Source of the DNA: Citreicella sp. C3M06
Lineage (GTDB): Bacteria > Pseudomonadota > Alphaproteobacteria > Rhodobacterales > Rhodobacteraceae
Assembly: GCF_018860705.1 (NCBI RefSeq)
Contig: NZ_JAHKQA010000020.1
Span: 1-53,355 of the forward strand
DNA length: 53,355 nt
Reading direction: 5' to 3'
The position numbers and the translations under genes were made by a program. The notes below the pieces were generated by a model that was not told the DNA's origin, made no database searches, and was given only the letters and a program-made list of their open reading frames with translations. The number at the start of each line of letters is the position of its first letter. Within the stretch, counting starts at the first letter, position 1. Below, one piece after another: positions 9,786 through 53,355 of the stretch.

Positions 9786-9790
9786 TTTGA

Positions 9791-37645: not shown

Positions 37646-37727
37646 GCAGAGCCCGCATAGCGCGCCAGAGGGCAGCGCACAAGCTATTTGCCGCATCGCA
37701 AAGCGGTGCGTGGCCTGCATCTAGCGG

Positions 37728-37942: not shown

Positions 37943-38485
37943 ATGAAAACGAACGTCAAGCTGCCCGACGTGACCTTCCGCACCCGTGTGCGCGACGACA
38001 GCATCGAAGGGCCGAACCCGTTCCGCTGGCAGGACATGACCACCGCCGATTATTTCGCCGGCAAGCGCGTCATCCTGTTTTCGCTGCCGGGGGCCTTTAC
38101 GCCGACCTGCTCGACCTACCAGCTGCCGGGCTTCGAGAACAATTTCGAAGAGTTCAAGGCGCAGGGCATCGACGAGATCTATTGCCTGTCGGTGAACGAC
38201 AGCTTCGTGATGAACCAGTGGGCCAAGGCGCAGGGCATCAAAAACGTCAAGGTGATCCCCGATGGGTCGGGCGAATTCAGCCGCCGGATGGGAATGCTGG
38301 TCAACAAGGACAATCTTGGCTTTGGGCCGCGCTCGTGGCGCTATGCGGCCATCGTCGACAACGGCGTGATCGAGGCATGGTTCGAAGAACCCGGCCTGAT
38401 GGACAACTGCCCCGACGATCCTTATGGCGAATCCTCGCCCGAGAACCTGCTGGCCCATCTCAAGCAGGCGGTCGCGGCAGAGTAA
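37943..38485 (+). CDS. Peroxiredoxin (Prx5-type redoxin)
   Basis: A 180-residue thiol peroxidase of the Prx5/AhpE-like redoxin family that reduces hydrogen peroxide and organic peroxides. The active-site motif is PGAFTPTCSTYQLPGF, with the peroxidatic cysteine in PTCS near residue 56. YFAGKRVILFSLPGAFTP, IYCLSVNDSFVMNQWAK and RSWRYAAIVDNGVIEAWF are Prx5 landmarks. One further cysteine lies near the C-terminus (MDNCPDDPYG). ATAGGAG is placed 6 bases before the ATG. It is transcribed away from the B12 operon and ends in its own terminator. Confidence 0.95.
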   Translation: MKTNVKLPDVTFRTRVRDDSIEGPNPFRWQDMTTADYFAGKRVILFSLPGAFTPTCSTYQLPGFENNFEEFKAQGIDEIYCLSVNDSFVMNQWAKAQGIKNVKVIPDGSGEFSRRMGMLVNKDNLGFGPRSWRYAAIVDNGVIEAWFEEPGLMDNCPDDPYGESSPENLLAHLKQAVAAE

Positions 38486-38542: not shown

Positions 38543-38815
38543 GTTTTTATGCGCGGGGGCGCTGCGCACGGTTCGCCCGCTGAATACCGCGTTCGGCACG
38601 CTCGATCGGGGCACGCCCCGCCACGGACGAGACGGAATTCCTCTCCATCTGACCGGGCGAGTCCCGCAGGTTTCGCCGACGCTCTTTGCCGATGATCTTT
38701 GGCACGACCCGGCAGAGACCGCAGCGCCGCCGCGCGCAGCGCGTCGCCCGGGCTCTGTGGCCTTGGCACGCCGCGATGCGCCCCAGTGCGTTTTGCAGAT
38801 GCAGAACTGAATTCA
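38543..38815. other. Non-coding gap before the iclR operator
   Basis: About 270 bases with no reading frame that looks like protein, no tRNA and no clear repeat. The base composition changes from GC-rich to AT-richer near 38800, where the regulatory region of the iclR gene begins. Confidence 0.5.
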
Positions 38816-38843
38816 TTGAGAAATTTCCCCTCGAATTTCACAA
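38816..38843. promoter_or_regulatory. Palindrome before the IclR gene, probable operator
   Basis: TTGAGAAATT (38816-38825) and AATTTCACAA (38834-38843) are inverted repeats with one mismatch in ten, separated by 8 bases. Similar AT-rich dyads are bound by IclR-family regulators. It lies about 85 bases before the regulator's start and is the only such site in front of the catabolic cluster. Confidence 0.5.
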
Positions 38844-38926
38844 TGTCGGAACGCAGTCGACGATGACGGTTTTTCTTGCCGAATTTACGACCGCCTGAGA
38901 CAGTGCCCGCAAGAGGAGCCACATAC

Positions 38927-39781
38927 ATGAAACCCCGAGCGGACCGCCGCTATCCGGCCGACTTTGTCGTGACCGGAGACGCGAAAGCCATGCCTGAAAA
39001 GTCGTCGCAGCGGACAATCCAGTCCGTCGAACGGGCGCTGACGCTGCTGGAACTGGTGGCGCGGGAACCGGCGGGGCTGACCCTTTCGGAACTGGCGAGC
39101 GCGGCGGGGCTGAACAGCTCGACCTGTCACCATCTTGCGGCGACGCTGGTGGCGCGGGGCTATCTGCGCAACGACAAGCGCAGTCGGGGCTATGTGCTCG
39201 GCGCGCGCATCCGCGAGTTGCACGAGCTAGAACAGGGCGAACGCGATCCTTCGGTGCTGCTGGCAGGCCCGTTGCAAGAGCTTGGGCAGCGCCTTGGGCA
39301 CGGGGTGCAGATGGCGGTGATGTCGGAAAACGCGCTGATCACCAAGCTGCGCTTTCCCGACCCAACCGGCGAGGTCGAAGAGGCCGACGAGATCGAAAAG
39401 ATGTCCGCCGCCCATGCCACGGCGACCGGCAAGTCGATCCTTGCATGGATCCCCGACACCGAACTGGTGCGGGTGATCTCGGCGCATGGGCTGACGCGCT
39501 ACACCCCGCGCACGGTGACCAGCCTGTCGGGGCTGATCGAGGAATTGCGGCTGGTGCGGCGTCACAAATACGCGGTCGATGACGAGGAATTCCGCCTCGG
39601 CATCTGCTGCATTGGCGCCAGCGTGCGCGATGGCACCGGCGCGGTGGTGGGGGCGATCTCGGTCACCATTCCCGCCGCGATGGCGAGCGAGCCGTATCGC
39701 AAGATGCTCATCGGCGCGATGGTCGCCGCTGGCAACGACTTTTCACGCAAGATCGAAACCGCGACGCGGTTCGGCACCTGA
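38927..39781 (+). CDS. IclR-family transcriptional regulator
   Basis: A 284-residue regulator. The N-terminal winged helix-turn-helix spans about residues 25-85 (QRTIQSVERALTLLELVARE, then LTLSELASAAGLNSSTCHHL and GYVLGARI). The IclR effector domain follows (MSAAHATATGKSILAWIP, GICCIGASVRDGTGAVVGAI, SVTIPAAM). The ATG at 38927 has AGAGGAG upstream and heads the plus-strand catabolic cluster, whose first gene starts 20 bases after its stop. IclR proteins in this setting usually respond to the pathway substrate or an intermediate. Confidence 0.9.
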   Translation: MKPRADRRYPADFVVTGDAKAMPEKSSQRTIQSVERALTLLELVAREPAGLTLSELASAAGLNSSTCHHLAATLVARGYLRNDKRSRGYVLGARIRELHELEQGERDPSVLLAGPLQELGQRLGHGVQMAVMSENALITKLRFPDPTGEVEEADEIEKMSAAHATATGKSILAWIPDTELVRVISAHGLTRYTPRTVTSLSGLIEELRLVRRHKYAVDDEEFRLGICCIGASVRDGTGAVVGAISVTIPAAMASEPYRKMLIGAMVAAGNDFSRKIETATRFGT

Positions 39782-39801
39782 AGAAAGAGGAGGAGACTAT
39801 C

Positions 39802-40968
39802 ATGGCAATGCAGGGCAAGGTGACGACCCACAAGGATTACCCGATCCCCGAGACGATGAAGGCCTGGGTGCTGGGCGATCCCGGCGAGCTGACGCTGGCC
39901 GACAAGCCGGTGCCCAGCCCGGGCAAGGCCGAGGTGCTGGTGCGCATCGACGCCGTGGCGATCTGCGCCACGGATCTTGAGATCATCCACCACGGCCCGC
40001 CCGCGCAGATCCACGGCGGCGATCCGTTCAACAAGAATTTCACCCCCGGTCACGAATACATGGGCACCGTCGTCGCCCTTGGGCCGGGCGTTGATGAATA
40101 TGCCATCGGCGAGCGCGTCACCGTCGAAATCCACGCCGGTTGCGGCCAGTGCAAGCGTTGCCGTGAGGGCATGTACACCTCGTGCCACAATTACGGCAAG
40201 AATTACGGCGATGTCGACAAGGGCCACCGCGCCAATGGCTTCACCACCGACGGCGGCTTTGCCGAATACGCAATCAACAGCGTCAACACGCTGGTGCATG
40301 TCGACGACAGCATGAGTGACGAAGAGGCGACGCTGGTCGTGACCGCGGGCACGGCGATGTACGGTCTGACCGAACTTGGCGGGCTGGTGGCCGGGGAAAG
40401 CGTCGTGGTGACCGGGCCGGGGCCGATCGGCCTTTTGGGGGCGGCGGTGGCCAAGGCGCTGGGTGCGCAGCCGGTGATCCTGACCGGCACCCGCGACAAC
40501 CGGCTTGAGATCGGCAAGCAGCTGGGCGCCGATCATGTGGTGAACGTGCGCAAGGAAGAAAACGTCGTCGAGAAGATCCGCGAGCTGAACGGCGGTAAGG
40601 GTGTCGATTACGTGGTCGAATGCTCGGGCGCGCCGCAGGCGCTGAACGAGGCGGCGCAGATGGTCAACCGGGGCGGGCGCATCTGTCTTGCGGCGTTTCC
40701 GGGCAGCTCGCCCGAGGTGGATATCGCCTATCTGGTGCGCAACAACATCTACCTCTACGGCATCCGGGGCGAGGGCAAGACCGCGACCCACCGCGCCGAG
40801 GCCTTCATGCGCCAGAAGCGCTTCGATGCCACGCTGATCCACACCCATACTTTCCAGATGGAAGATCTGCCCGAGGCGCTGCGCTACGCCAAGGACCGTG
40901 TCGAAGACGCCATCAAGGTAGTGGTCAAGAACAAGCACGCCGAAGCGCAGCGCGTCGCCGCCGAGTAA
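39802..40968 (+). CDS. Zinc-dependent alcohol dehydrogenase (MDR family)
   Basis: A 388-residue medium-chain dehydrogenase/reductase. Catalytic zinc ligands are Cys in AICATDLE and the His-Glu pair in TPGHEYMGTV. The structural zinc loop is GCGQCKRCREGMYTSC. The Rossmann motif VVTGPGPIGLLGAAVAKALG binds NAD(P). It has an extra N-terminal 17 residues and an insert (NYGDVDKGHRANGFTTDG) near the zinc loop, resembling L-threonine/sorbitol dehydrogenase-like enzymes. In this cluster it probably oxidises a hydroxyl group of the substrate, or a primary alcohol whose aldehyde goes to the Mo enzyme (inference). Confidence 0.9.
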   Translation: MAMQGKVTTHKDYPIPETMKAWVLGDPGELTLADKPVPSPGKAEVLVRIDAVAICATDLEIIHHGPPAQIHGGDPFNKNFTPGHEYMGTVVALGPGVDEYAIGERVTVEIHAGCGQCKRCREGMYTSCHNYGKNYGDVDKGHRANGFTTDGGFAEYAINSVNTLVHVDDSMSDEEATLVVTAGTAMYGLTELGGLVAGESVVVTGPGPIGLLGAAVAKALGAQPVILTGTRDNRLEIGKQLGADHVVNVRKEENVVEKIRELNGGKGVDYVVECSGAPQALNEAAQMVNRGGRICLAAFPGSSPEVDIAYLVRNNIYLYGIRGEGKTATHRAEAFMRQKRFDATLIHTHTFQMEDLPEALRYAKDRVEDAIKVVVKNKHAEAQRVAAE

Positions 40969-40978
40969 CCGCGCAGGG

Positions 40979-40997
40979 GGCGCGGGATATCCGCGCC
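40979..40997 (+). terminator. Hairpin after the alcohol dehydrogenase gene
   Basis: GGCGCGG and CCGCGCC pair over GATAT, 11 bases past the stop codon, without a T-run. It sits in the only gap over 100 bases (40969-41084) in the first half of the cluster and may stabilise or partly terminate the message. Confidence 0.4.
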
Positions 40998-41084
40998 TCT
41001 GACCCCTTGTTTCGACCCGCAGCCGACGCCACGGCTTTGGCACGCGGGGCCGCTGATGCCGACTGATCGAAGAGGTGCAGTCCC

Positions 41085-42002
41085 ATGCTGACCTACGATG
41101 CCTATCACCGACCGACCTCTCTGCCCGAGGCGCTGCGCCTCTGGCGGGATGCGCCCGAGGGAAGCCGGCTGGTTTCCGGCGCGACCGACCTTCTGCCTGC
41201 CGCCCGCGATGGCCGCCTTGGAGATGTCCATCTGCCCGCGCTTATCGACCTGACCGGGGTCACCGAGCTGCGCGGCTATGATTTCGCCAACGGCCATGTC
41301 GCGCTGGGGGCCGGGACGGTCTATCAGGATTTCCTGACCGACCCGGTGCTGCGCCGGGCGCTGCCTTGCATGCCTTATGTGTCGATCTGGTTCGCCGATG
41401 ACCAGATCCGCGAAACCGCCACGCTTGCGGGCAATCTGGTCAACGCCTCGCCGGTGGCCGATGGCACACCCCCGGTGGTGGCGCTGAACGGGCTTGTCGA
41501 GCTTTCCAAGCTTGACGGCGATGCCATCACGTCGCGCCGGGTGCCGGTGCGTGACTTCATCACCGGGCCGGGCCGCACCGTGATCGCGCCGGGCGAAATC
41601 ATGACACGGGTCTTTCTTGATACCTGCTACGGCTATGGCGGGGCGTTCCAGAAGGTCGGCCAGCGGCGCTCGCTGGTGATCTCGGTCGCCTGCTGCGCGG
41701 CGCTGGTCAAGCTCGACGAAAGCGGCCGGGTGTTCGAGGACGTGCGCCTTGCCCTTGGCGGGGTCGGTCCGGGGCCGATCCGGCTGGACGATTCCGAACG
41801 GATGCTGCGCGGCGAGCCGCTGTCCGAAGAACTGATGCAAGCCGCTGCCGGGTTGGCGGCGGAGAAGGTCGCCTCGCGCTCGCGCCGGGACTACCGCCGC
41901 GACGTGGTGGTCAGTTTCGTGCGCGCCGCCCTGTCGGAAGCGCTGAGCAATGCCGGGGCCAAGGCTCCGCTGCAAACCATGGAGGACATGGCCAATGTCT
42001 GA
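41085..42002 (+). CDS. FAD-binding subunit of a molybdenum hydroxylase (CoxM-like)
   Basis: A 305-residue FAD subunit of the xanthine dehydrogenase/CO dehydrogenase family. It passes electrons from the 2Fe-2S centres to NAD or another acceptor. The PCMH-type FAD site includes GSRLVSGATDLLPAARDG near residue 25 and ALGAGTVYQDFL. RETATLAGNLVNASPVADG is the second FAD motif. The C-terminal domain follows from about residue 175, with SRRDYRRDVVVSFVRAAL at the end. It overlaps the next gene by 8 bases. Confidence 0.92.
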   Translation: MLTYDAYHRPTSLPEALRLWRDAPEGSRLVSGATDLLPAARDGRLGDVHLPALIDLTGVTELRGYDFANGHVALGAGTVYQDFLTDPVLRRALPCMPYVSIWFADDQIRETATLAGNLVNASPVADGTPPVVALNGLVELSKLDGDAITSRRVPVRDFITGPGRTVIAPGEIMTRVFLDTCYGYGGAFQKVGQRRSLVISVACCAALVKLDESGRVFEDVRLALGGVGPGPIRLDDSERMLRGEPLSEELMQAAAGLAAEKVASRSRRDYRRDVVVSFVRAALSEALSNAGAKAPLQTMEDMANV

Positions 42003-43908
42003 GACCAGGATCACCTGCGAGGTCAACGGCCGCAAGGTCGCCCGCACCGTCGCAACCCATAAACGCCTGCTTGATCTGCTGCGCGACGATCTCAACCTGA
42101 CCGGCACCAAGGAAGGCTGCGGCGCCGGGGAATGCGGCACCTGTTCGGTGTTCGTCGATGGCAAGCTGGTGAAATCCTGCCTTGTGCCGGCGGCCCGTGC
42201 CGAGGGCGCGCGCATCGAAACCATCGAAGGGCTGGCGGGGATGGGCCCGCTGACCCCGGTGCAAAAGGCGTTTCACAAGACCGGCGCCAGCCAGTGCGGC
42301 TATTGCATTCCCGGCATGGTGATGGCGGCGACCAACTGCCTGCGGCTCAACCCCGAGGCCGATATCGACGAGATCAAGGAGCGTATGGGCGGCAATATCT
42401 GCCGCTGTACCGGCTATACCAAGATCCTCGAAGCGGTGGAAATCGCCCGTGACGTGATCGCCGGGCGCCGCCCCGAGGGCGATCTTGATACCGACGAGCC
42501 GCTTGGCGACAGCTTCATCGGCCACAACGTGCGCCGCATCGACGCCCCGGCCAAGGTTACCGGGCGCCTGCGCTATGCCGCCGACATGAAACTGGTCGAC
42601 ATGCTGCAGATGCAGGTGCTGCGCAGCCCGCATCCCCATGCGCGCATCGTTTCAATCGATACCTCTGTCGCCGAGGCGATGGAGGGGGTGGAATGCGTCA
42701 TCACCGCCGCAGATGTGCCCGGCAAGGACGGGTTTGGCGTGTTTGTGCATGACCAGCCGATCATGGCGCGCGGCAAGGTGCGCCATGTCGGCGAGGCGGT
42801 TGCCGCCGTTGCCGCCGAGGATTTGCTGACCGCCCGCCGCGCCGTCGCCGCGATTAAGGTCGAATATGAACCGCTGCCGGTGATCGGCACCCCCGAAGAC
42901 GCCATCGCCCCCGGCGCCCCGGTGATCCACGATTACGCGCCAGACAATGTCGTCAAGCATATCCCGCTGCGCAAGGGCAACCCCGAGGCGGGCTTTGCCG
43001 AGGCCGACCTGATCATCGAGGACAGCTTCAGTACGCAATCGGTAGAGCACGCCTACCTTGAACCCGAGGCCGGGGTGGCCTTTGTCGATCACGACGACGT
43101 GGTGACGGTGCATTCGCCCAGCCAGAACATCACCCATCACCGTCATATGCTGGCCGACATCCTTGGCCTGCCGATCAACAAGGTGCGCATGGTGATGTCT
43201 GCGGTGGGCGGCGGCTTTGGCGGCAAGGAAGACATGATCTATCAGGGCATGCTGGCGCTTGCGGCGATCAGGACCCGCCGCCCGGTGCAGCTGAATTTCA
43301 CCCGAGAGGAAAGCCTGATCGCCTCGGCCAAGCGGCATCCGTCCAAGGTCAGCTACAAGATGGGCCTGAAGCGGACCGGCAAGATCACTGCCATCACCTT
43401 TGACATGCTCTCGGACGGGGGCGCCTATGGCATGAGCTCCGAAGGGGTGATGCGCAAGGCGGCGATCCTGTCCTGCGGGCCTTACGAGGTGCACAACCTT
43501 CAGGTCGATACCCGCGCGGTCTATACCAACAACACGCCGTCGGGCGCGTTCCGCACCTTTGGCGGCATGCAGGCGCAATTCGCCACCGAAAGCATGATGG
43601 ACATCGCCGCCGAGGCGCTGGGCATGGACCCGTTCGAATTGCGGCGCATCAACATGTACCGCAAGGGCTCGATCACCCACACCCAGCATCGGCTTGACCG
43701 CGCATCGCTCGACATGGTGCTGGATGCGGCAGAAACCGCCAGCCGCTGGGAGAGCGGCGCGCCGAACGTGCGCGGTGCGGCGCGCAGCGACATGGGCGGC
43801 CCGGATACCCGCCAGCCCTGCACTCTGGGCGCGCGCATCGTCGCCGAGGCAGCGGACCTGTCGCAGGGCGATCATCCAACCAAGGCATCGACGGAGGCGG
43901 CAGAATGA
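41995..43908 (+). CDS. Molybdenum hydroxylase: 2Fe-2S domain fused to the N-terminal half of the Mo subunit
   Basis: A 637-residue composite protein. Residues 1-160 are a complete 2Fe-2S subunit with eight ligands: Cys42, 47, 50 and 62 (plant-type cluster) and Cys101, 104, 136 and 138 (QCGYC and CRC). After a short linker, residues about 170-637 are the first half of the molybdopterin subunit. RIDAPAKVTGRLRYAADM opens it, then VEHAYLEPEAGVA, GGGFGGKED near residue 405 and FRTFGGMQAQFATE. The chain stops at the boundary between the two Mo-subunit halves, and the rest is on the next gene, which begins within this stop codon (ATGA). In the usual layout the 2Fe-2S and Mo subunits are separate and the Mo subunit is whole. 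Confidence 0.92.
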   Translation: MSETRITCEVNGRKVARTVATHKRLLDLLRDDLNLTGTKEGCGAGECGTCSVFVDGKLVKSCLVPAARAEGARIETIEGLAGMGPLTPVQKAFHKTGASQCGYCIPGMVMAATNCLRLNPEADIDEIKERMGGNICRCTGYTKILEAVEIARDVIAGRRPEGDLDTDEPLGDSFIGHNVRRIDAPAKVTGRLRYAADMKLVDMLQMQVLRSPHPHARIVSIDTSVAEAMEGVECVITAADVPGKDGFGVFVHDQPIMARGKVRHVGEAVAAVAAEDLLTARRAVAAIKVEYEPLPVIGTPEDAIAPGAPVIHDYAPDNVVKHIPLRKGNPEAGFAEADLIIEDSFSTQSVEHAYLEPEAGVAFVDHDDVVTVHSPSQNITHHRHMLADILGLPINKVRMVMSAVGGGFGGKEDMIYQGMLALAAIRTRRPVQLNFTREESLIASAKRHPSKVSYKMGLKRTGKITAITFDMLSDGGAYGMSSEGVMRKAAILSCGPYEVHNLQVDTRAVYTNNTPSGAFRTFGGMQAQFATESMMDIAAEALGMDPFELRRINMYRKGSITHTQHRLDRASLDMVLDAAETASRWESGAPNVRGAARSDMGGPDTRQPCTLGARIVAEAADLSQGDHPTKASTEAAE

Positions 43909-44972
43909 ACGCGATCACTCAGACCAGCGCCGACACCCGGCGCAAGCGCGGGCGGGGCATGGCGGCAAGCTGGTACGGCATCGCCCGCACCGCGACCATC
44001 GACCGGGCCGGGGCCTGGGCCGAGATCGACGATGGCGGCACCATCAAGGTGGTCACCGGCGTCACCGAGATTGGCGAGGGCATCCTGACGGTGCTGGCGC
44101 AGGTCGCCGCCGAGGAAACCGGCGCGCGCCCCGAGGATGTCACCATCGGCGACAACGACACCGCCCGCTCTCCCGAGGCGGCCCATGCGGGCGCCACCCG
44201 GCAGACCTACATGATCGGCAATTCGGTGGCACTGGCCTCGCGCGAGGCGCGCAAGATGCTGTTCGAACAGATCGCCGAGCATTGGGACACCCCCGAAGAC
44301 AGCCTGCGCGCCTTCAACGGCGAGATCTGGGTCGAGGGCAGCAACCTGCGCATGACGCTGTCCGAGGCGGTGGCGATCTGCAAGGGGCGTGGCGTGGTGC
44401 CGGTGGGGGCAGCAAGCTTTACTGCCCATGGCACCGGGCTGCACCCGGTGGATGGCAAGGGCAGCCCGTGGCAGACCTATGTCTTCGGCACGCAGGTCGC
44501 CGAAGTCGAGGTCGACACATGGACGGGCGAGGTGCAGGTGCTGGGCATCTGGGCCGCGCATGACGTGGGCCGCTGCATCAACCCGCGCGGCGTCGAAGGC
44601 CAGATCGAAGGCGGCGTGGTGCAGGGGCTGGGGCAGGCGCTGATGGAGGAGCACATCTGCGAAGGTGGCCACCCGACCACCCATGGTTTTGCCAAATACA
44701 TCCTGCCGACGGCGCTGGATGTGCCGCAGATCAATTGCATCATCGTCGAAGACGAGGACCCGACCAGCCCCTTGCGGGCCAAGGGCATCGGAGAGCCGGC
44801 TCTGGTGCCGACCTGTCCGGCGATCATGAACGCCATCTATGACGCCATCGGCGTTCGGATGAAATCTTTGCCCGCGACACCGGAAAAGATCCTCGCGGCG
44901 CTTCGGATGCCGCCCGGAGGAGGGGCGCGCATCACTTGGAACAACCGCCCGGCGGGGGAAACCTTGACCTAG
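43905..44972 (+). CDS. Molybdenum hydroxylase: C-terminal half of the Mo subunit
   Basis: A 355-residue protein equal to the second half of a xanthine dehydrogenase-type Mo subunit. RGRGMAASWYGIARTATI leads in. GVTEIGEGILTVLAQVAAE and AHAGATRQTYMIGNSVALA bind the cofactor, and the catalytic glutamate is Glu297 in AKGIGEPAL. The start overlaps the preceding gene by four bases, and a 14-residue linker precedes the conserved part, so this looks like a true split rather than a sequencing slip. The active site must be completed between this chain and the N-terminal half. Nicotinate dehydrogenase of Eubacterium barkeri is a known case with the Mo subunit in two pieces. Confidence 0.92.
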   Translation: MNAITQTSADTRRKRGRGMAASWYGIARTATIDRAGAWAEIDDGGTIKVVTGVTEIGEGILTVLAQVAAEETGARPEDVTIGDNDTARSPEAAHAGATRQTYMIGNSVALASREARKMLFEQIAEHWDTPEDSLRAFNGEIWVEGSNLRMTLSEAVAICKGRGVVPVGAASFTAHGTGLHPVDGKGSPWQTYVFGTQVAEVEVDTWTGEVQVLGIWAAHDVGRCINPRGVEGQIEGGVVQGLGQALMEEHICEGGHPTTHGFAKYILPTALDVPQINCIIVEDEDPTSPLRAKGIGEPALVPTCPAIMNAIYDAIGVRMKSLPATPEKILAALRMPPGGGARITWNNRPAGETLT

Positions 44973-44978
44973 GGCGGT

Positions 44979-45012
44979 GCGGTGCCGCGGAACTGGAGAG
45001 CCGCGGCACCGC
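44979..45012 (+). terminator. Strong intercistronic hairpin before tctC
   Basis: A perfect 12-bp stem, 44979-44990 with 45001-45012 (core GGTGCCGCGG/CCGCGGCACC), and a 10-base loop, in the 72-base gap between the Mo-enzyme and transporter genes. There is no T-run, so partial termination or protection of the downstream binding-protein message is more likely than a full stop. Confidence 0.65.
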
Positions 45013-45044
45013 CCTATCGACCAATCAACAGGGAGGAGAGGAAG

Positions 45045-46007
45045 ATGATTTTCAAGGCCACGATGAAAGGTGCCCTTGCGGCGCTTGCCACCGTCTCGAT
45101 GCTGGCGCTTCCGGGCGGCGCTCGGGCGGACTACCCGGAAAAACCCATCGAGATGACCATCCTGTTCGGAGGCACCGCGAACACCATCGCGCAGCTTCTG
45201 GCCGAGTTGATGTCGCAGGAACTGCCCGAGCCGGTGGTGCCGGTCAGCCGTCCCGGCGGCGGCGGCGCGGTGGGCTATAGCCATGTCGCGGCGGCGCGCC
45301 CCGATGGCTACCAGCTGGTGTGGAATTCCAACTCCATCAACACCGTCACCCATACCGGCCGCGTGCCGTTCGACTATACCGCCTTTGCCCCGATCGCGCG
45401 GATCTCGGTCGAGACCCCGGCGCTTGGGGTCAATTCCGATCGCGGCTGGGCGTCGCTTGATGATCTCAAGGCCGCGGCGATGGCGGGCAAGCCGCTCAAG
45501 GTCGGGATTTCGGGCAAGGGATCGTTCACCCATCTGGTGTCGGCGGCGCTGTTCGATGCCATGGGGATCGCTGACAAGGTCATGTATATCTCCTACGGCG
45601 ACGGCAAGGCGCCGGTCGAGCTGATGGCGGGGCGCATCGACGCCGCGATCCAGTGGCCGGGGCAGTTCTCTTCCTACATGCAGAGCGGCGAGCTGAAGGT
45701 GCTTGCGGTCACCGGGGCCGAGCGCATCGAGGCGCTGCCCGACGTGCCCACCGCCGCCGAACAGGGCGTCGATGTCGATATCACCATGTGGCGCGGTCTT
45801 GCCGCCCCCGCGGGCACCCCCGAGGGCGTGATCGCCGCGCTTGCCAAGGCCGCACAGGCCGCCACCCAGACCGACCAGTTCAAGGCGGCCACGGGCACAC
45901 TGGGCTTTACCGCCGCCTATATGGGGCCGGAACAGTTCGGCGCGCTGATCAAGCAGGACGACGAGTTCTACGGCGCGCTGCTGGGCGAGCTTGGCATGGG
46001 CATGTGA
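45045..46007 (+). CDS. tctC: TctC-type periplasmic carboxylate-binding protein
   Basis: A 320-residue binding protein of the tripartite tricarboxylate transporter family (Bug superfamily). Signal peptide ALAALATVSMLALPGGARA is followed by the mature start DYPEKPIEMTILFGGTANTI. PVSRPGGGGAVGYSHVAAA, ARPDGYQLVWNSN and WPGQFSSYMQSGELKVLAV are family landmarks. The usual aspartate-mediated carboxylate site lies in the first-lobe loops. The ATG at 45045 has GGGAGGAGAGGAAG upstream. The hairpin just before it may raise its level relative to the membrane parts. Confidence 0.92.
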   Translation: MIFKATMKGALAALATVSMLALPGGARADYPEKPIEMTILFGGTANTIAQLLAELMSQELPEPVVPVSRPGGGGAVGYSHVAAARPDGYQLVWNSNSINTVTHTGRVPFDYTAFAPIARISVETPALGVNSDRGWASLDDLKAAAMAGKPLKVGISGKGSFTHLVSAALFDAMGIADKVMYISYGDGKAPVELMAGRIDAAIQWPGQFSSYMQSGELKVLAVTGAERIEALPDVPTAAEQGVDVDITMWRGLAAPAGTPEGVIAALAKAAQAATQTDQFKAATGTLGFTAAYMGPEQFGALIKQDDEFYGALLGELGMGM

Positions 46008-46028
46008 GCAGGCGGGGGGATTGGACAG

Positions 46029-46529
46029 ATGACTGACAGACACAAGGACCTGATCTTCGGAGGGCTGCTTCTGGGCCTCGGGCTGACATGGACCGGGCTG
46101 GTCTGGTCGACCATCCCCCCGGCCTTCGATGCCTACAGCATCGGCCCACGCGCCTTTCCTCTGACGCTTGGGTTCATACTGGTCGGGCTTTGCATGGTGC
46201 TGCTGGTGCACCGCGCGGCCCGCGAACATGACAACAGCGGTACCGACGTGCCCGCTGAAACGGATACGGCGCTGAGCCGCCGCATCATGTGGCTGCCGCT
46301 GGCGCTGATCACCGTGGAAATCTGCGCCTATGGCTTTTTGCTCGACAAGATCGGTTTCCTGCTCGCGACGCCGCTGGTGATCCTTGCGATCCTCGCTTTG
46401 AACCTGCGCTGCGGCAAGCCGAAGGTGCTTGTCGGGATGGCGCTGGGCGTAACCGTGGGCTGCTGGCTGATCTTCGACAAGCTCATGGGCATCCACCTGG
46501 CCAGCGGCAGCTGGATCAACCTCGGATAG
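46029..46529 (+). CDS. tctB: TctB-type small membrane subunit
   Basis: A 166-residue protein with four membrane helices: LIFGGLLLGLGLTWTGLVWS, RAFPLTLGFILVGLCMVLL, LPLALITVEICAYGFLL and a pair around ATPLVILAILALNLR and GMALGVTVGCWLIFDKLMG. This is the fold of the small TctB subunit, which helps hold the large TctA channel. YSIGPRAFPL is the most typical stretch. It lies between tctC and tctA, as in all such operons, 8 bases before the tctA start. Confidence 0.9.
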   Translation: MTDRHKDLIFGGLLLGLGLTWTGLVWSTIPPAFDAYSIGPRAFPLTLGFILVGLCMVLLVHRAAREHDNSGTDVPAETDTALSRRIMWLPLALITVEICAYGFLLDKIGFLLATPLVILAILALNLRCGKPKVLVGMALGVTVGCWLIFDKLMGIHLASGSWINLG

Positions 46530-46536
46530 GCCAATC

Positions 46537-48036
46537 ATGGATATGTTTTTTCACGCGGCAATGCTCGCGCTCGACCCCTGGGCCATCGGAGCGGTTGGCC
46601 TTGGGACGCTGGTAGGGCTGATCTTCGGCTCGATCCCGGGTCTGACATTCACCGTGGCGCTGGCGCTGGCGCTTCCCATCACCTTTTCGATGGACAGCGT
46701 GCCGGCCATCGGCCTGCTGCTTGGCACCTATATCGGCGGCATGACCGGGGGATCGGTCTCTGCCATCCTGCTGGGCATCCCCGGCACACCATCCGCCGCC
46801 GCCACCGTGCTTGACGGCTATCCGATGACCAAGAAGGGCGAGGCGTCGATCGCCCTTGGCACGGCGGTCATCGCCTCGGTCTTTGGGGGGATGTTTTCGC
46901 TGATCGTGATGATCGTCTCGGTGAACCTTGTTTCGAAACTGGCCATCGGCTTTGGCCCGGCCGAGATCTTTGCCCTCGTGGTGTTCGGCCTGTCGACGAT
47001 CTGCGGGCTGTGCGGCGGCTCGATGCTCAAGGGGCTGATCTCCGGGGTGCTCGGGCTGATGATCATGACCGTCGGGCTGGACCAGATGGAAGGCGTGCCG
47101 CGCATGACCTTTGGTTCGGTGAACCTGCTGCAGGGGGTGAACCTGCTGGTGGCGATGATCGGCCTGTTCGCGGTGCCCTTCATCATAGAGGCCTGCTCGG
47201 GCCATATGGAGACCAAGCACAAGCGTATGGTCCGGGTACGGGCAGAACTGCCGTCGATCCGGCTGCTGCTGGGGCGGTTCTGGCTGATGCTGCGCTGCTC
47301 GGTGCTGGGCACCGGCATCGGGGCGATCCCCGGCACTGGCGGCGCCATCGCCTCGTTTCTGGCCTATGATCACGCCCGGCGCACATCCAAGACCAAGGAG
47401 AGCTTCGGCAAGGGAGAGCTGGACGGCGTCATCGCCCCCGAGGCGGCCAACAACGCCGTCACCGGCGGCACGCTGATCCCGCTGCTGTCGCTGGGCATTC
47501 CGGGCGATCCGGCCACGGCCATCGTGCTGGCGGGGCTGATGATCCACGGCATCACGCCGGGGCCGGCGCTGTTCATGAACCACGCCACCGAAGTCTACGG
47601 CATGTATGTCGCGGTGGCTGTCGCCTATGTCTGGGTGCTGGGGCTGCAACTGCTGGGCATCCGCCTGTTCGTCCATGTGCTGAAGATCCCGCGCGATCTG
47701 CTGGCCATCGGGGTACTGGTGCTTTGCGTCATCGGGGCGTGGTCAGTGCGCAACTCGGTCTTCGACATCTACGCCATGGCGGCGATCGGGGGGCTAGCAT
47801 ACCTGTTCATCGCGCTCGAGGTGCCGATCACGCCGATCATCCTTGGCATGGTGCTTGGCCCGACCATCGAAAACGAGTTCCGCACCGCCATGATGCTGTC
47901 GGGCGGCAGCTGGGACATCATCTTCACCTCTCCGCTCGCCATGATCTTCCTCGGCCTCGCAGCGCTGATCATCGTCCTTCAGGCGATTTCGGAACTGCGG
48001 GTCCGGCGGTCCAACCAACAGAAGGTAAACGCATGA
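46537..48036 (+). CDS. tctA: TctA-type large membrane subunit
   Basis: A 499-residue permease with about twelve helices that forms the transport path of the tripartite tricarboxylate transporter. Hallmarks are GTLVGLIFGSIPGLTFTVAL near the start, LGTYIGGMTGGSVSAILLGIPG, TPSAAATVLDGYPMTKKGEA, GAIPGTGGAIASFLAYDHAR and LGIPGDPATAIVLAGLMIHG. It couples substrate uptake to an ion gradient. It shares four bases (ATGA) with the following thiamine diphosphate enzyme gene, so transport and metabolism are tied at the level of translation. Confidence 0.95.
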   Translation: MDMFFHAAMLALDPWAIGAVGLGTLVGLIFGSIPGLTFTVALALALPITFSMDSVPAIGLLLGTYIGGMTGGSVSAILLGIPGTPSAAATVLDGYPMTKKGEASIALGTAVIASVFGGMFSLIVMIVSVNLVSKLAIGFGPAEIFALVVFGLSTICGLCGGSMLKGLISGVLGLMIMTVGLDQMEGVPRMTFGSVNLLQGVNLLVAMIGLFAVPFIIEACSGHMETKHKRMVRVRAELPSIRLLLGRFWLMLRCSVLGTGIGAIPGTGGAIASFLAYDHARRTSKTKESFGKGELDGVIAPEAANNAVTGGTLIPLLSLGIPGDPATAIVLAGLMIHGITPGPALFMNHATEVYGMYVAVAVAYVWVLGLQLLGIRLFVHVLKIPRDLLAIGVLVLCVIGAWSVRNSVFDIYAMAAIGGLAYLFIALEVPITPIILGMVLGPTIENEFRTAMMLSGGSWDIIFTSPLAMIFLGLAALIIVLQAISELRVRRSNQQKVNA

Positions 48037-49910
48037 TGCTGGACAAGAATGACATGCCCGCCGCCGAGGCCACGCGCAGCCGCGCCATCCGCCTTGCCTC
48101 ACAGGAGTTCGACACCGCCTTTCCCGGGCAGGGCGTGCTTGAGCTGACGCTGTCCGAGGCGCTGGTGGTGGCGCTGATGAAGCAGGGGGTGCGCACGTGG
48201 TTTGCCATCTTTGGCCATGGCTCGACCGATCTGGGCGAGGTGCTGCGGGTCTATCATGAGGAAGGCGCGGTGCAGGTGATCAACTGCCGCAACGAGGTCG
48301 AGATGGCCCATGCCGCCACCGCCCATGCCTGGGTCACCGGGCAGACGCCCGCGGTGGTGACCTCGATCGGGCCGGGGGGCTTGCAGGCCATGGCGGGCTC
48401 CCTGGCGGCGGCGTCGAACGGGGTGGGGGTGTATCACATCTACGGCGACGAGACGACGCGGGGCGAGGGCTACAACATGCAGCAGGTGCCCAAGCCGCAG
48501 CAGGGGGTGTTTGGCCAGATCGGCGCGCTGATGGGGCAGGCCTATACGCTGCATACCCCCGGTGCGTTGCGCGAATGCATGCGGCGCGGCACGGCTTGCG
48601 TGCACCATCCCTACAAGGCGGGGCCGTTTTACATCCTGCTGCCGATCAACACCCAGCCGGCGCTGACGCAGCTCAACCTTGCCACGCTGCCCGGCAAGCA
48701 GGACGTGCCGCCGGTCGTCCCGGTGGGCGCGGCTCTGAGCGAGGCGGCAGCGTTGATCCGGGGCGGCACGCGCGCGGTGATCAAGGCCGGGGGCGGCTGC
48801 CGCAAGCATTCCGAAGCGCTGCGCCGCTTTGCCTGTGCCATCGGCGCGCCGGTGGTGCTCTCACCGGGATCAACCGGGGTTATGATGGACGGGCATGTAC
48901 AGAACATGCATGTCGGCGGGTCGAAGGGATCGATCAGCGGAAATTTCGCCATGCAGGGGGCCGAGCTGGTGATCATCGTCGGCTCGCGCGGGGTCTGTCA
49001 GGCGGATTGCTCGGGGATTGGCTATCCGAATGCGCGCGCCGTCATCAACATCAACGGTGATCTTGATGATCTGACCCATTACGCCCGCACCACGGCGCTG
49101 CCCGGCGATATCTCGGCGGTGCTGACCGCGCTGCTGTCTGCGCTGGGCAAGGACACCGGGCGCGATGCCCGCAGAAACTGGCTGCGTGATTGCGAGGCGA
49201 AAAAGGCCGAGTGGACCGCCTTCAAGGCTGCCCGCATTTCAGGCGCGCCCATCGCCGATGTGGTGTGGAAAACCCCGGTGCTGACCCAGCCCGCCGCCAT
49301 CCACGCCGTTGCAAGTTTTGCCAAGGCGAAGGGCGCGGTGAAATTTTTCGATGCGGGCGACGTACAGGCCAATGGCTTTCAGATCGTCGAAGACGACAGT
49401 CCGACCGAGACCGTCACCGAAACCGGGGCGTCTTATATGGGCTTTGCCGCCTCGGCGCTGCTGGGGCTGGCCGGGGTCAAAGACGCGCCCTATGGCGTCG
49501 CCTTCACTGGCGATGGCTCTTTCATGATGAACCCGCAGGTGTTGATCGACGCGGTGGAACATGGCGTGCGCGGCATGATCGCGCTGTTCGACAACCGGCG
49601 CATGGCGGCGATCACCGATCTTCAGCTCGCCCAGTACGGGCGCGCGTTCAAGACCAACGACAGCGTTGCGGTCGATTATGTCGCGATGGCCGGGGCGGTC
49701 AGCGGCGTCAAGGCGATCTGGGGGGGCACCACCCGCGAAGAGCTGGATGCGGCGCTAAAGGCGGGGTTCGCCCATGACGGGCTGAGCCTGCTGCACATCC
49801 CTGTCTATGCCGGGCGCGATCCGCTCGCGGGTATGGGCGCCTATGGAAACTGGAACGTCGGCAACTGGGTCGAAGACGTGCAGGCGAAATACCTGCACGC
49901 CACGATCTGA
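48033..49910 (+). CDS. Thiamine diphosphate-dependent enzyme, IolD-like
   Basis: A 625-residue ThDP enzyme with the three-domain layout of the acetolactate synthase/IolD group. The N-terminal pyrimidine-binding domain carries the catalytic glutamate in INCRNEVEMAHAATAHAW and IGPGGLQAMAGSL. The middle domain includes ELVIIVGSRGVCQAD. The C-terminal domain has the cofactor signature GDGSFMMNPQVLIDAV through to FDNRRM. IFGHGSTDLGEVL resembles IolD, which opens a cyclic 1,2-dione in inositol breakdown, more than acetolactate synthase. No other iol genes are present, so the reaction is unknown. Cleavage or decarboxylation of a 1,2-dione or 2-keto acid is plausible. The ATG at 48033 overlaps tctA. 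Confidence 0.85.
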   Translation: MMLDKNDMPAAEATRSRAIRLASQEFDTAFPGQGVLELTLSEALVVALMKQGVRTWFAIFGHGSTDLGEVLRVYHEEGAVQVINCRNEVEMAHAATAHAWVTGQTPAVVTSIGPGGLQAMAGSLAAASNGVGVYHIYGDETTRGEGYNMQQVPKPQQGVFGQIGALMGQAYTLHTPGALRECMRRGTACVHHPYKAGPFYILLPINTQPALTQLNLATLPGKQDVPPVVPVGAALSEAAALIRGGTRAVIKAGGGCRKHSEALRRFACAIGAPVVLSPGSTGVMMDGHVQNMHVGGSKGSISGNFAMQGAELVIIVGSRGVCQADCSGIGYPNARAVININGDLDDLTHYARTTALPGDISAVLTALLSALGKDTGRDARRNWLRDCEAKKAEWTAFKAARISGAPIADVVWKTPVLTQPAAIHAVASFAKAKGAVKFFDAGDVQANGFQIVEDDSPTETVTETGASYMGFAASALLGLAGVKDAPYGVAFTGDGSFMMNPQVLIDAVEHGVRGMIALFDNRRMAAITDLQLAQYGRAFKTNDSVAVDYVAMAGAVSGVKAIWGGTTREELDAALKAGFAHDGLSLLHIPVYAGRDPLAGMGAYGNWNVGNWVEDVQAKYLHATI

Positions 49911-49926
49911 GCCACGGGAGAAAAGC

Positions 49927-51375
49927 ATGTATCACGATCTGAAACTGTATATTGGCGGCGACTGGCGTCCCGCCTCTGACAATGGCACCAAGCCGGTCAC
50001 CGATCCCGCCACCGAGGATGCGCTGGGCCTGATCGCCGTCGCCACCGAGGCCGATGTTGCCGATGCGCTGAATGCCGCGCAGGCAGGGTTCAAGGCCTGG
50101 CGCGCCACCGGCCCGTGGGAGCGCGGGGCAAAGCTGCGCCGGGTGGCCGAGATCCTGCGCGCCGATGCCGACCGCATTGCCATGCTGATGTCGCTTGAAA
50201 CCGGCAAGCCGCTGGCCGAGGCCAAGGGCGAGACCAATGCCGCCGCCGATCAGTTCGAATGGTACGCCGAAGAGACGAAGCGTATCTACGGCCAGACCAT
50301 CGAAAGCCGCACCCCCGACAGCCGGATGCAGGTGATCTATCAACCGGTGGGCGTTGTCGCGGCCTTCAGCGCGTGGAATTTCCCGGCGCTGCTGCCTGCC
50401 CGCAAGATCGCCGCCGCGCTGGGCGCGGGCTGCGCCATCATCGTGAAACCGGCAGGGGAAACCCCGGCTTCCTGCGCGGCGCTGGTGCAGGCCTGCCACG
50501 ATGCGGGCATCCCGGCGGGAGCGGTCAACATGGTGACCGGCCATTCCGGGGCCATCGCGGCGCAGCTCATCGGCTCGCCCATCGTGCGCAAGGTCTCGGT
50601 CACCGGTTCTGTGCCCATCGGCAAGGAGATCCTGCGCCTTGCCGCCGATGGCGTGAAGAAGGTGACGATGGAGCTGGGCGGCCACGGCCCGGTGCTGGTG
50701 TTCAACGACTTTGATGCCATCGCCGCCGCCGAAACCTGCGCCACCACCAAGTTCCGCAACTGCGGGCAGGTCTGTATCTCGCCCACCCGCTTTTACGTGC
50801 ACGAGGCCAGCTACGAGGCGTTTTCCACCCGCTTTGCCGAGGTGGCAAAATCGCTGAAGATCGGGCGCGGCACGGATGATGGCGTACAGGTCGGTCCGAT
50901 GGCCAACCGGCGCGGGCTGGAGACCATCCGCCGCATGACGCAGGACGCGCTGGACAAGGGCGCGCAGTTGCTGGCGGGCGGCGGTACCCCTGCGGGCGCC
51001 AACAAGGGGTTTTTCATCGAGCCCACCGTGCTGGGCCAGGTGCCCGACGATGCGCTGGTGATGACCGAAGAACCCTTTGGCCCCATCGCCCCGATCACCA
51101 CCTTTCGTGACTATGACGAGGTGATCGCGCGGGCCAATGCGCTGCCCTTTGGCCTTGCGGGCTATGTGTTCTCGAACGATCTGCGCATCGCGACGCGGGC
51201 CTCCGAGGATCTTGAATGCGGCATGATCGGGGTCAACGAGATGCTGCTGGCCACCGCCGAGGCGCCCTTTGGTGGCATCAAGGAAAGCGGCATGGGCCGC
51301 GAAGGCGGCGCGCTGGGCATCAAGGATTACCTCGATGCCAAATACATTCGCACCAAACTGGGAGCCATCGCATGA
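49927..51375 (+). CDS. NAD(P)-dependent aldehyde dehydrogenase, semialdehyde type
   Basis: A 482-residue ALDH close to succinate-semialdehyde/2-ketoglutarate-semialdehyde dehydrogenases. AFSAWNFPALLPARKIAAAL and VSVTGSVPIGKEILRLAAD bind the cofactor. ELGGHGPVLVF supplies the general base, FRNCGQVCISPTRFYV has the nucleophilic cysteine and EAPFGGIKESGMGREGG is the GabD-type end. GGGAGAAAAGC precedes the ATG, and its stop overlaps the dehydratase start (ATGA). With a sugar-acid dehydratase next to it, oxidation of 2-ketoglutarate semialdehyde or a related product is the leading idea (inference). Confidence 0.9.
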   Translation: MYHDLKLYIGGDWRPASDNGTKPVTDPATEDALGLIAVATEADVADALNAAQAGFKAWRATGPWERGAKLRRVAEILRADADRIAMLMSLETGKPLAEAKGETNAAADQFEWYAEETKRIYGQTIESRTPDSRMQVIYQPVGVVAAFSAWNFPALLPARKIAAALGAGCAIIVKPAGETPASCAALVQACHDAGIPAGAVNMVTGHSGAIAAQLIGSPIVRKVSVTGSVPIGKEILRLAADGVKKVTMELGGHGPVLVFNDFDAIAAAETCATTKFRNCGQVCISPTRFYVHEASYEAFSTRFAEVAKSLKIGRGTDDGVQVGPMANRRGLETIRRMTQDALDKGAQLLAGGGTPAGANKGFFIEPTVLGQVPDDALVMTEEPFGPIAPITTFRDYDEVIARANALPFGLAGYVFSNDLRIATRASEDLECGMIGVNEMLLATAEAPFGGIKESGMGREGGALGIKDYLDAKYIRTKLGAIA

Positions 51376-53078
51376 GCGACAAAGAACAGGGCCTGTCGCG
51401 CGGGCTGACCAATTACGGCGACCGGGATTTCTCGGTCTACCTGCGCAACAGCTTTGCCTCTTCCATGGGCTACAGCCGCGACATGCTGAAACGCCCCATC
51501 GTCGGCATCGCCAACAGCTTTTCGGGATTCAACAACTGCCACCGGCATTTCCCCGAACTGCTCGATGCGGTGAAACGCGGGGTGCTGATGGAAGGCGGGC
51601 TGCCGATCGAATTTCCCACCATTTCATTGGGCGAGGTGTTCCTGTCGCCGACCTCGCTCAAATTCCGCAATCTGATGTCGATGGACACCGAGGAAATGGT
51701 GCGCGCCCAGCCGATGGATGCGGTGGTGCTGATGGGCGGCTGCGACAAGACGGTGCCAGCGCAGCTGATGGGGGCGGCCTCGGCCGATCTGCCGGCGGTG
51801 CAACTGGTGGCGGGGCCGATGATGACCTCGCGCTATCAGGAAGAACGTCTGGGCGCCTGCACCGATTGCCGCCGCTTCTGGTCGAAATACCGCGCCAAGG
51901 AGGTGACGACAGAACAGATAAACGACATCGAGGGGCGGCTTGCCACCACCTCGGGCACCTGCGCTGTGATGGGCACCGCCTCCACCATGGCCTGCATCGC
52001 CGAAACGCTGGGCATGTCGCTGCCGGGCACGGCGGCGATTCCGGCGGTGCACGCAGACCGTCTGCGCGCGGGCGAGGAATCGGGGCGCGCCGCTGCCCGG
52101 ATGATCCTGAACCCGATCAAACCGTCGCAAGTCATGACCGAAAAATCGGTGGAAAACGCGCTGCGGGTGTTGCTGGCGTTGGGGGGCTCGACCAACGCCA
52201 TCATTCACCTGACCGCCGTGGCGCGCCGTCTTGGCATCCCGGTGTCGCTGCAAAAGCTCAACGAGCTGTCCGATACGACGCCGGTGCTGGTGAACCTCAA
52301 GCCGGTGGGCAGCAATTACATGGAAGATTTCTTCTTTGCGGGCGGCGTCGGCGCGGTGCTGCGCGAGCTGAAGCCGCTGCTGCATCTCGACACGCTGTCG
52401 GTCACCGGCCAGACCCTGGGCGACCGGCTGGAGCAGGACGAAGGCTGGGTGGATCGCCGGGTGATCGCCAAGGCCTCCGAGCCGCTGGAGCCGCAGGGCG
52501 GGCTGGTGGCGCTGTTCGGCAATCTTGCGCCGCGCGGGGCGATCCTCAAACGCTCTGCCGCCGACAAGACGTTGTTCGAAAAAGAGGGGCGGGCGGTGGT
52601 GTTCACCTCGCTGGCCGATCTTGCAGCGCGGGTCGATGACCCGGATCTGGACATCACCAAGGACGATTTCATGGTGTTGCAGAACGCTGGCCCCAAAAGC
52701 GAATCCGGCATGCCCGAGGCGGGCTACCTGCCGCTGCCGCGCAAGATCGCGGAGCAGGGCGTCAAGGACATGGTGCGCATTTCCGATGCGCGTATGTCGG
52801 GTACGGCCTTTGGCACCATTGTGTTGCATGTCGCGCCCGAGGCCTCGGTCGGTGGGCCGCTGGCGCTGGTGCGCAACGGCGATCGCATCAAGCTGTCGGT
52901 CAAGGAGCGGCGCATCGAGCTACTGGTCGATGATGCCGAACTGGAAAGCCGCCGCGCCGAGTGGGTCAGCGACAACGTGCCGCCCGAGCAGCGGCGCGGC
53001 TATGACCGGCTTTATGCATCCGAGGTGATGCAGGCGGACGAGGGCTGCGATTTCGCCTTTCTCGGGCCGGTGGACTGA
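51372..53078 (+). CDS. IlvD/Edd-family sugar-acid dehydratase (arabonate dehydratase-like)
   Basis: A 568-residue iron-sulfur dehydratase. Its pattern follows the L-arabonate/D-xylonate dehydratase branch rather than true IlvD or Edd: GRPIVGI-like KRPIVGIANSFSGFNNC, MGGCDKTVPAQLMGAASADL, SGTCAVMGTASTMACIAETL, LGGSTNAIIHL and ARMSGTAFGTIVLHVAPEA. The three cysteines that hold the cluster (in NNC, GGCDK and SGTC) are present. It would remove water from an aldonate to give a 2-keto-3-deoxy acid. The start overlaps the aldehyde dehydrogenase by four bases. The true substrate is probably a sugar acid or hydroxy acid brought in by the TctCBA transporter. Confidence 0.9.
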   Translation: MSDKEQGLSRGLTNYGDRDFSVYLRNSFASSMGYSRDMLKRPIVGIANSFSGFNNCHRHFPELLDAVKRGVLMEGGLPIEFPTISLGEVFLSPTSLKFRNLMSMDTEEMVRAQPMDAVVLMGGCDKTVPAQLMGAASADLPAVQLVAGPMMTSRYQEERLGACTDCRRFWSKYRAKEVTTEQINDIEGRLATTSGTCAVMGTASTMACIAETLGMSLPGTAAIPAVHADRLRAGEESGRAAARMILNPIKPSQVMTEKSVENALRVLLALGGSTNAIIHLTAVARRLGIPVSLQKLNELSDTTPVLVNLKPVGSNYMEDFFFAGGVGAVLRELKPLLHLDTLSVTGQTLGDRLEQDEGWVDRRVIAKASEPLEPQGGLVALFGNLAPRGAILKRSAADKTLFEKEGRAVVFTSLADLAARVDDPDLDITKDDFMVLQNAGPKSESGMPEAGYLPLPRKIAEQGVKDMVRISDARMSGTAFGTIVLHVAPEASVGGPLALVRNGDRIKLSVKERRIELLVDDAELESRRAEWVSDNVPPEQRRGYDRLYASEVMQADEGCDFAFLGPVD

Positions 53079-53089
53079 AGGGACAGAGC

Positions 53090-53355
53090 ATGAAGATAGG
53101 GACGCCGAAGGAGCTAGTGCCTGGTGAGAACCGGGTGGCGCTGACGCCGGAGTCGGCGCGTGCGTTGCACAAGCTGGGGCATGAGTGTCTGGTTGAAAGC
53201 GGCGCGGGCGTTGCGGCGGGCTTTTCCGACGCCGCTTACAGCGATGCGGGGGTGACGGTACTCGACAGTGCCGAGGCGCTGTATGAGCAGGCCGATGTGA
53301 TCGCCAAGGTGCAGCCGCCGAGCGACGCCGAGGTCGACCGGCTGACAGAGGGCAA
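53090..53355 (+). CDS. pntA: NAD(P) transhydrogenase alpha subunit, N-terminal part (cut by window edge)
   Basis: The first 88 residues read MKIGTPKELVPGENRVALTP, then LHKLGHECLVESGAGVAAGF and QADVIAKVQPPSD. This is the N-terminus of PntA and the related alanine dehydrogenases. The spacing favours PntA, which with PntB moves hydride between NADH and NADPH at the expense of the proton gradient. It starts 11 bases after the dehydratase stop with GAAGGGACAG upstream, so it is probably co-transcribed with the catabolic genes and would rebalance their cofactors. Alanine dehydrogenase cannot be ruled out from this portion alone. Confidence 0.8.
   Translation, partial: MKIGTPKELVPGENRVALTPESARALHKLGHECLVESGAGVAAGFSDAAYSDAGVTVLDSAEALYEQADVIAKVQPPSDAEVDRLTEG

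Follow-up and report, generated by a model that had tools for sequence, protein, structure and literature searches.

Gene content and layout of the operon

The analyzed window, the 53,355-nucleotide stretch of contig NZ_JAHKQA010000020.1 of Citreicella sp. C3M06, contains 11 plus-strand genes arranged head to tail between positions 38927 and 53078. These genes encode an IclR-family regulator, a zinc-dependent alcohol dehydrogenase (ADH), three proteins of a molybdenum (Mo) hydroxylase, the TctCBA transporter, a thiamine diphosphate (ThDP)-dependent enzyme, an aldehyde dehydrogenase (ALDH), and an IlvD/EDD-family dehydratase. We assigned the gene families with Pfam and NCBIfam, and the assignments supported the importer, oxidation, ThDP enzyme, aldehyde oxidation, and dehydration families named in an earlier note on this region. 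Based on gene neighborhoods, the operon is a conserved, predicted catabolic unit with its own IclR gene, centered on the ThDP enzyme. Its features are as follows.

38814..38845, no strand assigned: candidate IclR-type operator, an imperfect palindrome 5' of iclR that overlaps a promoter-like hexamer
38927..39781, plus: IclR-family regulator (Pfam HTH_IclR and IclR_C)
39802..40968, plus: zinc-dependent medium-chain dehydrogenase (adh), threonine dehydrogenase/inosose dehydrogenase-like
41085..42002, plus: FAD-binding subunit of a xanthine-dehydrogenase-family molybdenum hydroxylase
41995..43908, plus: single protein with the [2Fe-2S] domains and the N-terminal half of the Mo subunit (MoCoBD_1)
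43905..44972, plus: C-terminal half of the Mo subunit (MoCoBD_2; moL2)
44979..45012, plus: stable hairpin that lacks a T run, 3' of the Mo genes and 5' of tctC (folding z of −3.4)
45045..46007, plus: TctC solute receptor
46029..46529, plus: TctB
46537..48036, plus: TctA
48033..49910, plus: ThDP-dependent enzyme, presumed to cleave C-C bonds; common to all variants compared
49927..51375, plus: aldehyde dehydrogenase of the succinic/ketoglutaric semialdehyde type
51372..53078, plus: IlvD/EDD dehydratase of the sugar-acid type
53090..53355, plus: 5' part of a gene of the pntA/alanine dehydrogenase N-terminal family, broken off by the contig end

The genes are tightly packed, and the coordinates agree with the 4- to 8-base overlaps described earlier: 8 bases (41995-42002) and 4 bases (43905-43908) among the Mo genes, 4 bases between tctA and the ThDP gene (48033-48036), and 4 bases between the ALDH and dehydratase genes (51372-51375). 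Two gaps are wider, namely, 116 bases between adh and the Mo genes and 72 bases between moL2 and tctC. Despite these gaps, a single transcript likely spans the operon. The hairpin lies in the second gap and is a possible RNA processing or stability element; strong folding was also found at this place in one related locus (L033) but not in two others (L018 and L020).

The earlier note had placed all of these genes behind one IclR operator. The palindrome at 38814-38845 is a plausible candidate for such a site, but it was not found 5' of the iclR genes of those relatives that could be examined. The same note had listed a transhydrogenase as part of the operon. The last gene does belong to the AlaDh/PNT N-terminal family, but only as an 88-codon fragment, as the contig stops at 53355. 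In five related loci (L019, L025, L033, L050, and L100), an AlaDh/PNT homologue starts approximately 20 to 200 bases 3' of ilvD. With TctC, TctB, and TctA all present, the tripartite tricarboxylate transporter is complete.

Conservation of the operon and exchange of modules around the ThDP gene

To place the operon among its relatives, we fetched 80 loci with their flanks, representing the best-scoring relatives of the ThDP protein among the matches listed, and compared them to all window proteins. A partner gene was counted if it lay on the same strand, within 10.5 kb, and above a set identity; several loci are broken by contig ends. Only selected neighbor proteins were scanned against family libraries. 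All seven catabolic genes (adh, the three Mo genes, thdp, aldh, and ilvD) were present at 24 of the 80 loci, and their order was identical in 24 of 24. These loci come from Rhodobacterales, Rhizobiales, and Burkholderiales kin, among others, and from strain HIMB114, which we take to be a member of SAR11. Because the seven genes recur in a fixed order in relatives, the operon is more than a chance association, and the claim that the genes form one catabolic unit holds.

Few genomes carry the operon, yet its range is broad. Of 295 sampled genomes from the family of the source organism, 11 have the ThDP gene, the source genome among them. Seven of the ten other carriers have it in this operon (one of them, L103, is broken by a contig end before the Mo genes), two have a version with a Gfo/Idh oxidoreductase together with ALDH and IlvD, and one has it beside a Gfo/Idh gene alone. 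A sample of 385 genomes from the class yielded seven carriers, again including the source genome; the six others comprise two ADH/Mo versions with ALDH and IlvD, three loci with a Gfo/Idh neighbor, and one with neither (L139, near a contig end). The genome samples overlap the 80 loci, as contigs of G1013, G029, G040, G085, and G880 match those of L055, L022, L040, L084, and L079, respectively, in length. The ThDP family and its partners span marine, soil, and gut-type lineages, with gut bacteria carrying the operon in part, and the substrate is therefore probably common in nature.

Comparison of the 80 loci revealed that the genes around the ThDP gene are exchanged as modules; the ThDP gene appears as the hub of this arrangement because its protein served as the query. 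Two entry modules were observed. The first consists of the Mo genes, present at 38 loci, and ADH, present at 37, all of which also have the Mo genes. The second is a Gfo/Idh/MocA oxidoreductase, present at 29 loci. At none of the 80 loci did the two entry modules occur together (Fisher's test, 9e-12, on loci that are not independent), and among the 46 loci with full flanks, 25 had Mo genes, 17 had Gfo/Idh, 4 had neither, and none had both. In a ThDP tree built by a quick method, 26 of the 29 rows with Gfo/Idh entry fell into one group of 27, the 27th row being without a detected entry module, and three changes were needed when the ADH/Mo and Gfo/Idh rows alone were considered. The clustering of the Gfo/Idh loci points to few independent events, and the exclusivity statistics therefore overstate their number.

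A TctC-type gene was found at 32 of the 38 Mo loci, L094 has a DASS carrier, and the solute-binding protein of a sugar-type ATP-binding cassette (ABC) transporter occurs at 18 of the 29 Gfo/Idh loci. At two loci labelled Deltaproteobacteria and Spirochaetes (L092 and L095), the Gfo/Idh protein carries a fused SCP-2 sterol-carrier-type domain.

Three exit modules were observed, and they never overlap. ALDH is present at 42 of the 80 loci, 40 of them with IlvD; a second type of Gfo/Idh protein together with an α/β-hydrolase is present at 7; and an RpiB-like isomerase is present at 6, three of which also have a two-gene transketolase and one a dihydroxyacetone-kinase-type gene. Some loci carry extra genes, encoding a xylose-isomerase-like TIM barrel (9/80) or a protein of the metallo-β-lactamase fold (5/80).

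The enzymes and their closest relatives

The ThDP protein has the N-terminal, central, and C-terminal domains of its superfamily. Its conserved Glu, presumably the catalytic residue, is kept in 80 of 81 aligned rows (the remaining row has a gap), and the GDGS and DN parts of the GDG...N cofactor motif are kept in all 81. The best NCBIfam model for this protein is IolD (TIGR04377), and the earlier note had stressed an IolD-like enzyme that stands oddly without other inositol genes. However, the match reached 150.5 bits against a cutoff of 715. Three other ThDP genes of the genome outscore the operon protein on this model (188, 184, and 165 bits), which makes it the fourth of six matches, and the source genome, which is 96% complete, has no match to IolE (TIGR04379). 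We therefore rejected membership in the inositol (IolD) family. As the IolD match is weak and IolE is absent, the missing inositol genes are no puzzle, and the label that best-match annotation would give is corrected.

These results also bear on a possible cyclitol pathway. In it, the ThDP enzyme would be a true IolD-like ring-opening hydrolase and the ADH would be akin to the inosose dehydrogenase IolM. Such a pathway would account for the best model of the ThDP enzyme, for IolM as the third-best model of the ADH (201 bits), for the Gfo/Idh neighbors of relatives, whose best match is IolG (also far below its cutoff), and for the xylose-isomerase-like TIM barrel seen in some relatives. Against it, the partner genes of the operon differ from those of myo-inositol catabolism, the scores for the ThDP enzyme and the ADH lie far under the curated cutoffs (715 and 450), other ThDP genes of the same genome score higher on the IolD model, IolE is absent, and the importer is of the carboxylate type. 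We consider this explanation decidedly improbable. A different analogue within the same ThDP family is cyclohexane-1,2-dione hydrolase (PDB 2pgn), which cleaves a 1,2-diketone hydrolytically and is a candidate model for such chemistry here, although the operon protein matches it at only 38 bits (phmmer), below acetolactate synthases, which reach up to 63 bits.

The three Mo-hydroxylase proteins together contain the [2Fe-2S] domains, the FAD domain, both Mo-cofactor domains, and the conserved Glu in the C-terminal half that characterize the xanthine dehydrogenase family. This Glu, which lies in a GIGEP motif and which we take to be catalytic, is kept in 35 of 35 rows. A Glu/Lys pair in the N-terminal half is kept in 38 of 39 rows (one gap), and two aligned aldehyde oxidoreductases differ there; by our assumed numbering, the pair sits at the positions of Glu802 and Arg880 of xanthine oxidase. 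Among 38 loci, the Mo subunit is divided between the two cofactor domains in 34, fused in 3 (L036, L091, and L094), and broken by a contig end in 1. A Mo subunit split in this way is thus seen here in a new setting.

Of the solved chains that align over the Mo domain only, nicotinate dehydrogenase matches best, with 311 bits over 396 residues; it likewise has two Mo-binding subunits according to an excerpt of its published description (PMC10331938). The Eubacterium barkeri enzyme (NdhFSLM) resembles the operon proteins in splitting Mo binding over two polypeptides and in the sequence of the N-terminal half, and it differs in that, in the operon, the [2Fe-2S] domains are fused to that half. This match raises the prospect of a pathway for an N-heterocyclic carboxylate, in which the Mo enzyme would hydroxylate the ring as nicotinate dehydrogenase does and the other genes would degrade the opened chain. 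The Glu/Lys pair, which by the numbering assumed above is shared with purine and nicotinate enzymes, and the carboxylate-type importer would fit such a role. However, family scans of the operon proteins found no partner genes of the nicotinate pathway, and no amidase, deaminase, or ring reductase adjoins the ThDP gene among the neighbors scanned; in a few ADH/Mo loci, genes for an amidohydrolase and a cyclase-type protein are located farther downstream. Moreover, the Gfo/Idh oxidoreductase replaces the entire Mo and ADH module in its 29 loci, including the 18 with a sugar-type ABC transporter, and the three fused Mo subunits suggest a separate origin of the split. A heterocyclic substrate thus seems to us a doubtful prospect, on a par with a cyclitol.

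The ADH scores below the cutoffs for L-threonine dehydrogenase (222 against 458 bits) and IolM (201 against 450) and is 70 to 74% identical to the copies in the Clostridia-type loci L091, L093, and L094. A second ADH of 72% identity is encoded elsewhere in the genome (L114, G000:C60, positions 9701-10780), with no ThDP or Mo genes there; downstream of it lie a DHDPS-family gene and a frame that looks Gfo/Idh-like by eye. In two other genomes, an ADH of 71 to 73% identity lies near a different Mo enzyme. The ADH subfamily is therefore not exclusive to the operon, and the paralogue gave no substrate.

The ALDH is closest by score to succinic and ketoglutaric semialdehyde dehydrogenases, though below their cutoffs (507.8 bits against 646 on the succinic semialdehyde dehydrogenase [SSADH] model TIGR01780). 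Its Arg159 and Arg277 correspond by spacing to Arg163 and Arg281 of the Azospirillum ketoglutaric semialdehyde dehydrogenase (AbKGSADH), and none of the 43 aligned rows, the window protein among them, lacks either residue. An excerpt of the AbKGSADH study describes both residues as contacting the substrate, with Arg281 binding the carboxylate of succinic semialdehyde in docking (PMC5385487). As a control, we inspected the genome's 12 remaining ALDH matches (E value of ≤1e-30): both arginines were present in one, which is SSADH-like, only the first in another, and neither in 10 (one of them gapped at the second position). The conserved arginines suggest that the product released by the ThDP enzyme bears a carboxylate as well as the aldehyde.

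In the dehydratase, the three cluster cysteines, which map to Cys59, Cys127, and Cys200 of the Rhizobium enzyme, are kept in 48 of 48 rows, and the Ser of the SDARMSGT motif, in the catalytic Ser region, is kept in 46 of 48 (two gapped), as expected for an IlvD/EDD dehydratase. The subfamily carries an ACTDCRR motif, the second Arg of which is present in 46 of 48 rows; a cysteine and an Arg pair are both absent from this place in the two best solved relatives. The protein falls short of the L-arabinonate dehydratase model NF009559 (688 bits against 882) and passes the broader model PRK06131 (811 against 539). Solved IlvD/EDD sugar-acid dehydratases take acids with hydroxyls at C2 and C3, according to an excerpt of one report (PMC9795676). 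A further IlvD/EDD-family protein, with 31% identity to the operon dehydratase, is encoded in the same window (23315-25150, minus strand).

A proposed pathway and its alternatives

As a whole, these data are best explained by a route of import, two oxidations, ThDP-dependent cleavage to a carboxylated hydroxy-aldehyde, oxidation by ALDH, and dehydration by IlvD, a reading that we put forward tentatively and at somewhat less than even chances. TctCBA would import a carboxylate, and the zinc-dependent ADH and the split Mo hydroxylase would carry out two two-electron oxidations to give a dicarbonyl or 2-keto compound. Next, the ThDP enzyme would cut a C-C bond, either decarboxylating a 2-keto acid or hydrolyzing a 1,2-diketone, and release a hydroxy-aldehyde with a carboxylate (uronate-like). 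ALDH would turn this aldehyde into a polyhydroxy diacid, which the IlvD/EDD enzyme would dehydrate; the product would be a 2-keto-3-deoxy diacid or, in the case of tartrate, oxaloacetate in a single step. For longer diacids, cleavage would fall to an aldolase of the GarL/HpaI type whose gene lies outside the operon. While gene content, gene order, module swapping, and residue conservation are directly observed, we infer the order of the reactions, the nature of the aldehyde, and the type of chemistry at the ThDP step.

The exit modules fit this scheme. The three would make sense jointly because all suit a 2-hydroxy-aldehyde released by the ThDP enzyme: it could be oxidized by ALDH, processed by Gfo/Idh and the hydrolase via a lactone, or converted by the isomerase to a ketose for the kinase and transketolase.

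The earlier note had proposed a different sequence of dehydration, ThDP cleavage, and semialdehyde oxidation. In such a Weimberg- or butanetriol-type pathway, IlvD would form a 2-keto-3-deoxy sugar acid, the ThDP enzyme would decarboxylate it (or another dehydratase would convert it to ketoglutaric semialdehyde), and ALDH would finish. The relatedness of the ALDH to SSADH and KGSADH and of IlvD to sugar-acid dehydratases speaks for this order, and engineered butanetriol routes use dehydration and decarboxylation steps of this kind. Like the oxidative, nonphosphorylative sugar-acid pathways of the Weimberg and Dahms types, the operon combines these two enzyme families; unlike them, it lacks a lactonase and a 2-keto-3-deoxy acid dehydratase and adds the ThDP enzyme, the Mo hydroxylase, and the TctCBA importer. 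The selected neighbors that were scanned included no 2-keto-3-deoxy-pentonate dehydratase. Furthermore, 33 of the 80 loci have the ThDP gene but no ilvD, among them every one of the six loci with an isomerase exit, although some of the 33 are broken by contig ends. Because of this distribution, we favor the order ThDP enzyme, ALDH, IlvD and regard dehydration as the first step as unlikely.

Several observations weigh against ThDP cleavage to a carboxylated aldehyde followed by ALDH and IlvD. The Glu/Lys pair of the Mo enzyme is like that of the hydroxylases of purines and nicotinate, not that of aldehyde oxidoreductases, which would be odd for a sugar-acid role. The carboxylate-binding role of the ALDH arginines derives from docking of a relative, AbKGSADH, whose polar pair Asn159/Gln160 is Leu-Leu in the operon enzyme; as the SSADH-like subfamily shares the arginines, they may reflect inheritance. 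The lactonase exit would be more apt for a C5-C6 uronate than for a C4 semialdehyde. Finally, no exit was seen at the 12 of the 80 loci where Gfo/Idh and the ThDP gene stand alone, the 3 where only ADH and Mo genes accompany the ThDP gene, and the 4 that are partnerless (part of these loci are broken by contig ends); IlvD occurs without ALDH at 7 of 47 loci.

With regard to the fate of the IlvD product, we searched two genomes for the KDPG-type, DHDPS, HpcH/HpaI, and FAH families. The 1.2-Mb genome G1013 carries the catabolic genes, with no match to tctB. It has no KDPG/KHG-type aldolase (PF01081), one DHDPS-family protein, which passes the dapA cutoff, one FAH-family protein, and one HpaI/GarL-type aldolase, which scores below the cutoffs of both models. 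GarL is named for a 2-keto-3-deoxy diacid.

A more specific form of the cleavage route would shorten keto or uronic sugar acids by one carbon. The ADH and the split Mo hydroxylase would oxidize a hydroxyketone end to a 2-keto acid, a new family of ThDP decarboxylases would remove CO2, and ALDH and IlvD would pass the resulting aldarate to central metabolism, with Spirochaetes, Clostridia, and aerobes sharing the ThDP hub and swapping entry and exit modules. We offer this version as speculative and, in all its parts together, rather improbable.

In targeted searches of the open-licence PMC literature, no description of the pathway was found, in agreement with the statement of the earlier note that no named pathway has this gene combination, and no curated model that we tried names it. 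The gene combination, the module swapping, and the ThDP subfamily appear to be undescribed in the literature searched, and the operon probably encodes a new pathway assembled from known enzyme families. Its swappable entry and exit modules provide built-in clues that make discovery of the substrate directly testable.

Two further features lie upstream of the operon. A redoxin/AhpC-family gene (37943-38485, plus strand) immediately precedes it, and a cobalamin riboswitch (37468-37660, minus strand; 135.9 bits) is located directly 5' of a TonB-dependent receptor gene (35465-37333, minus strand).

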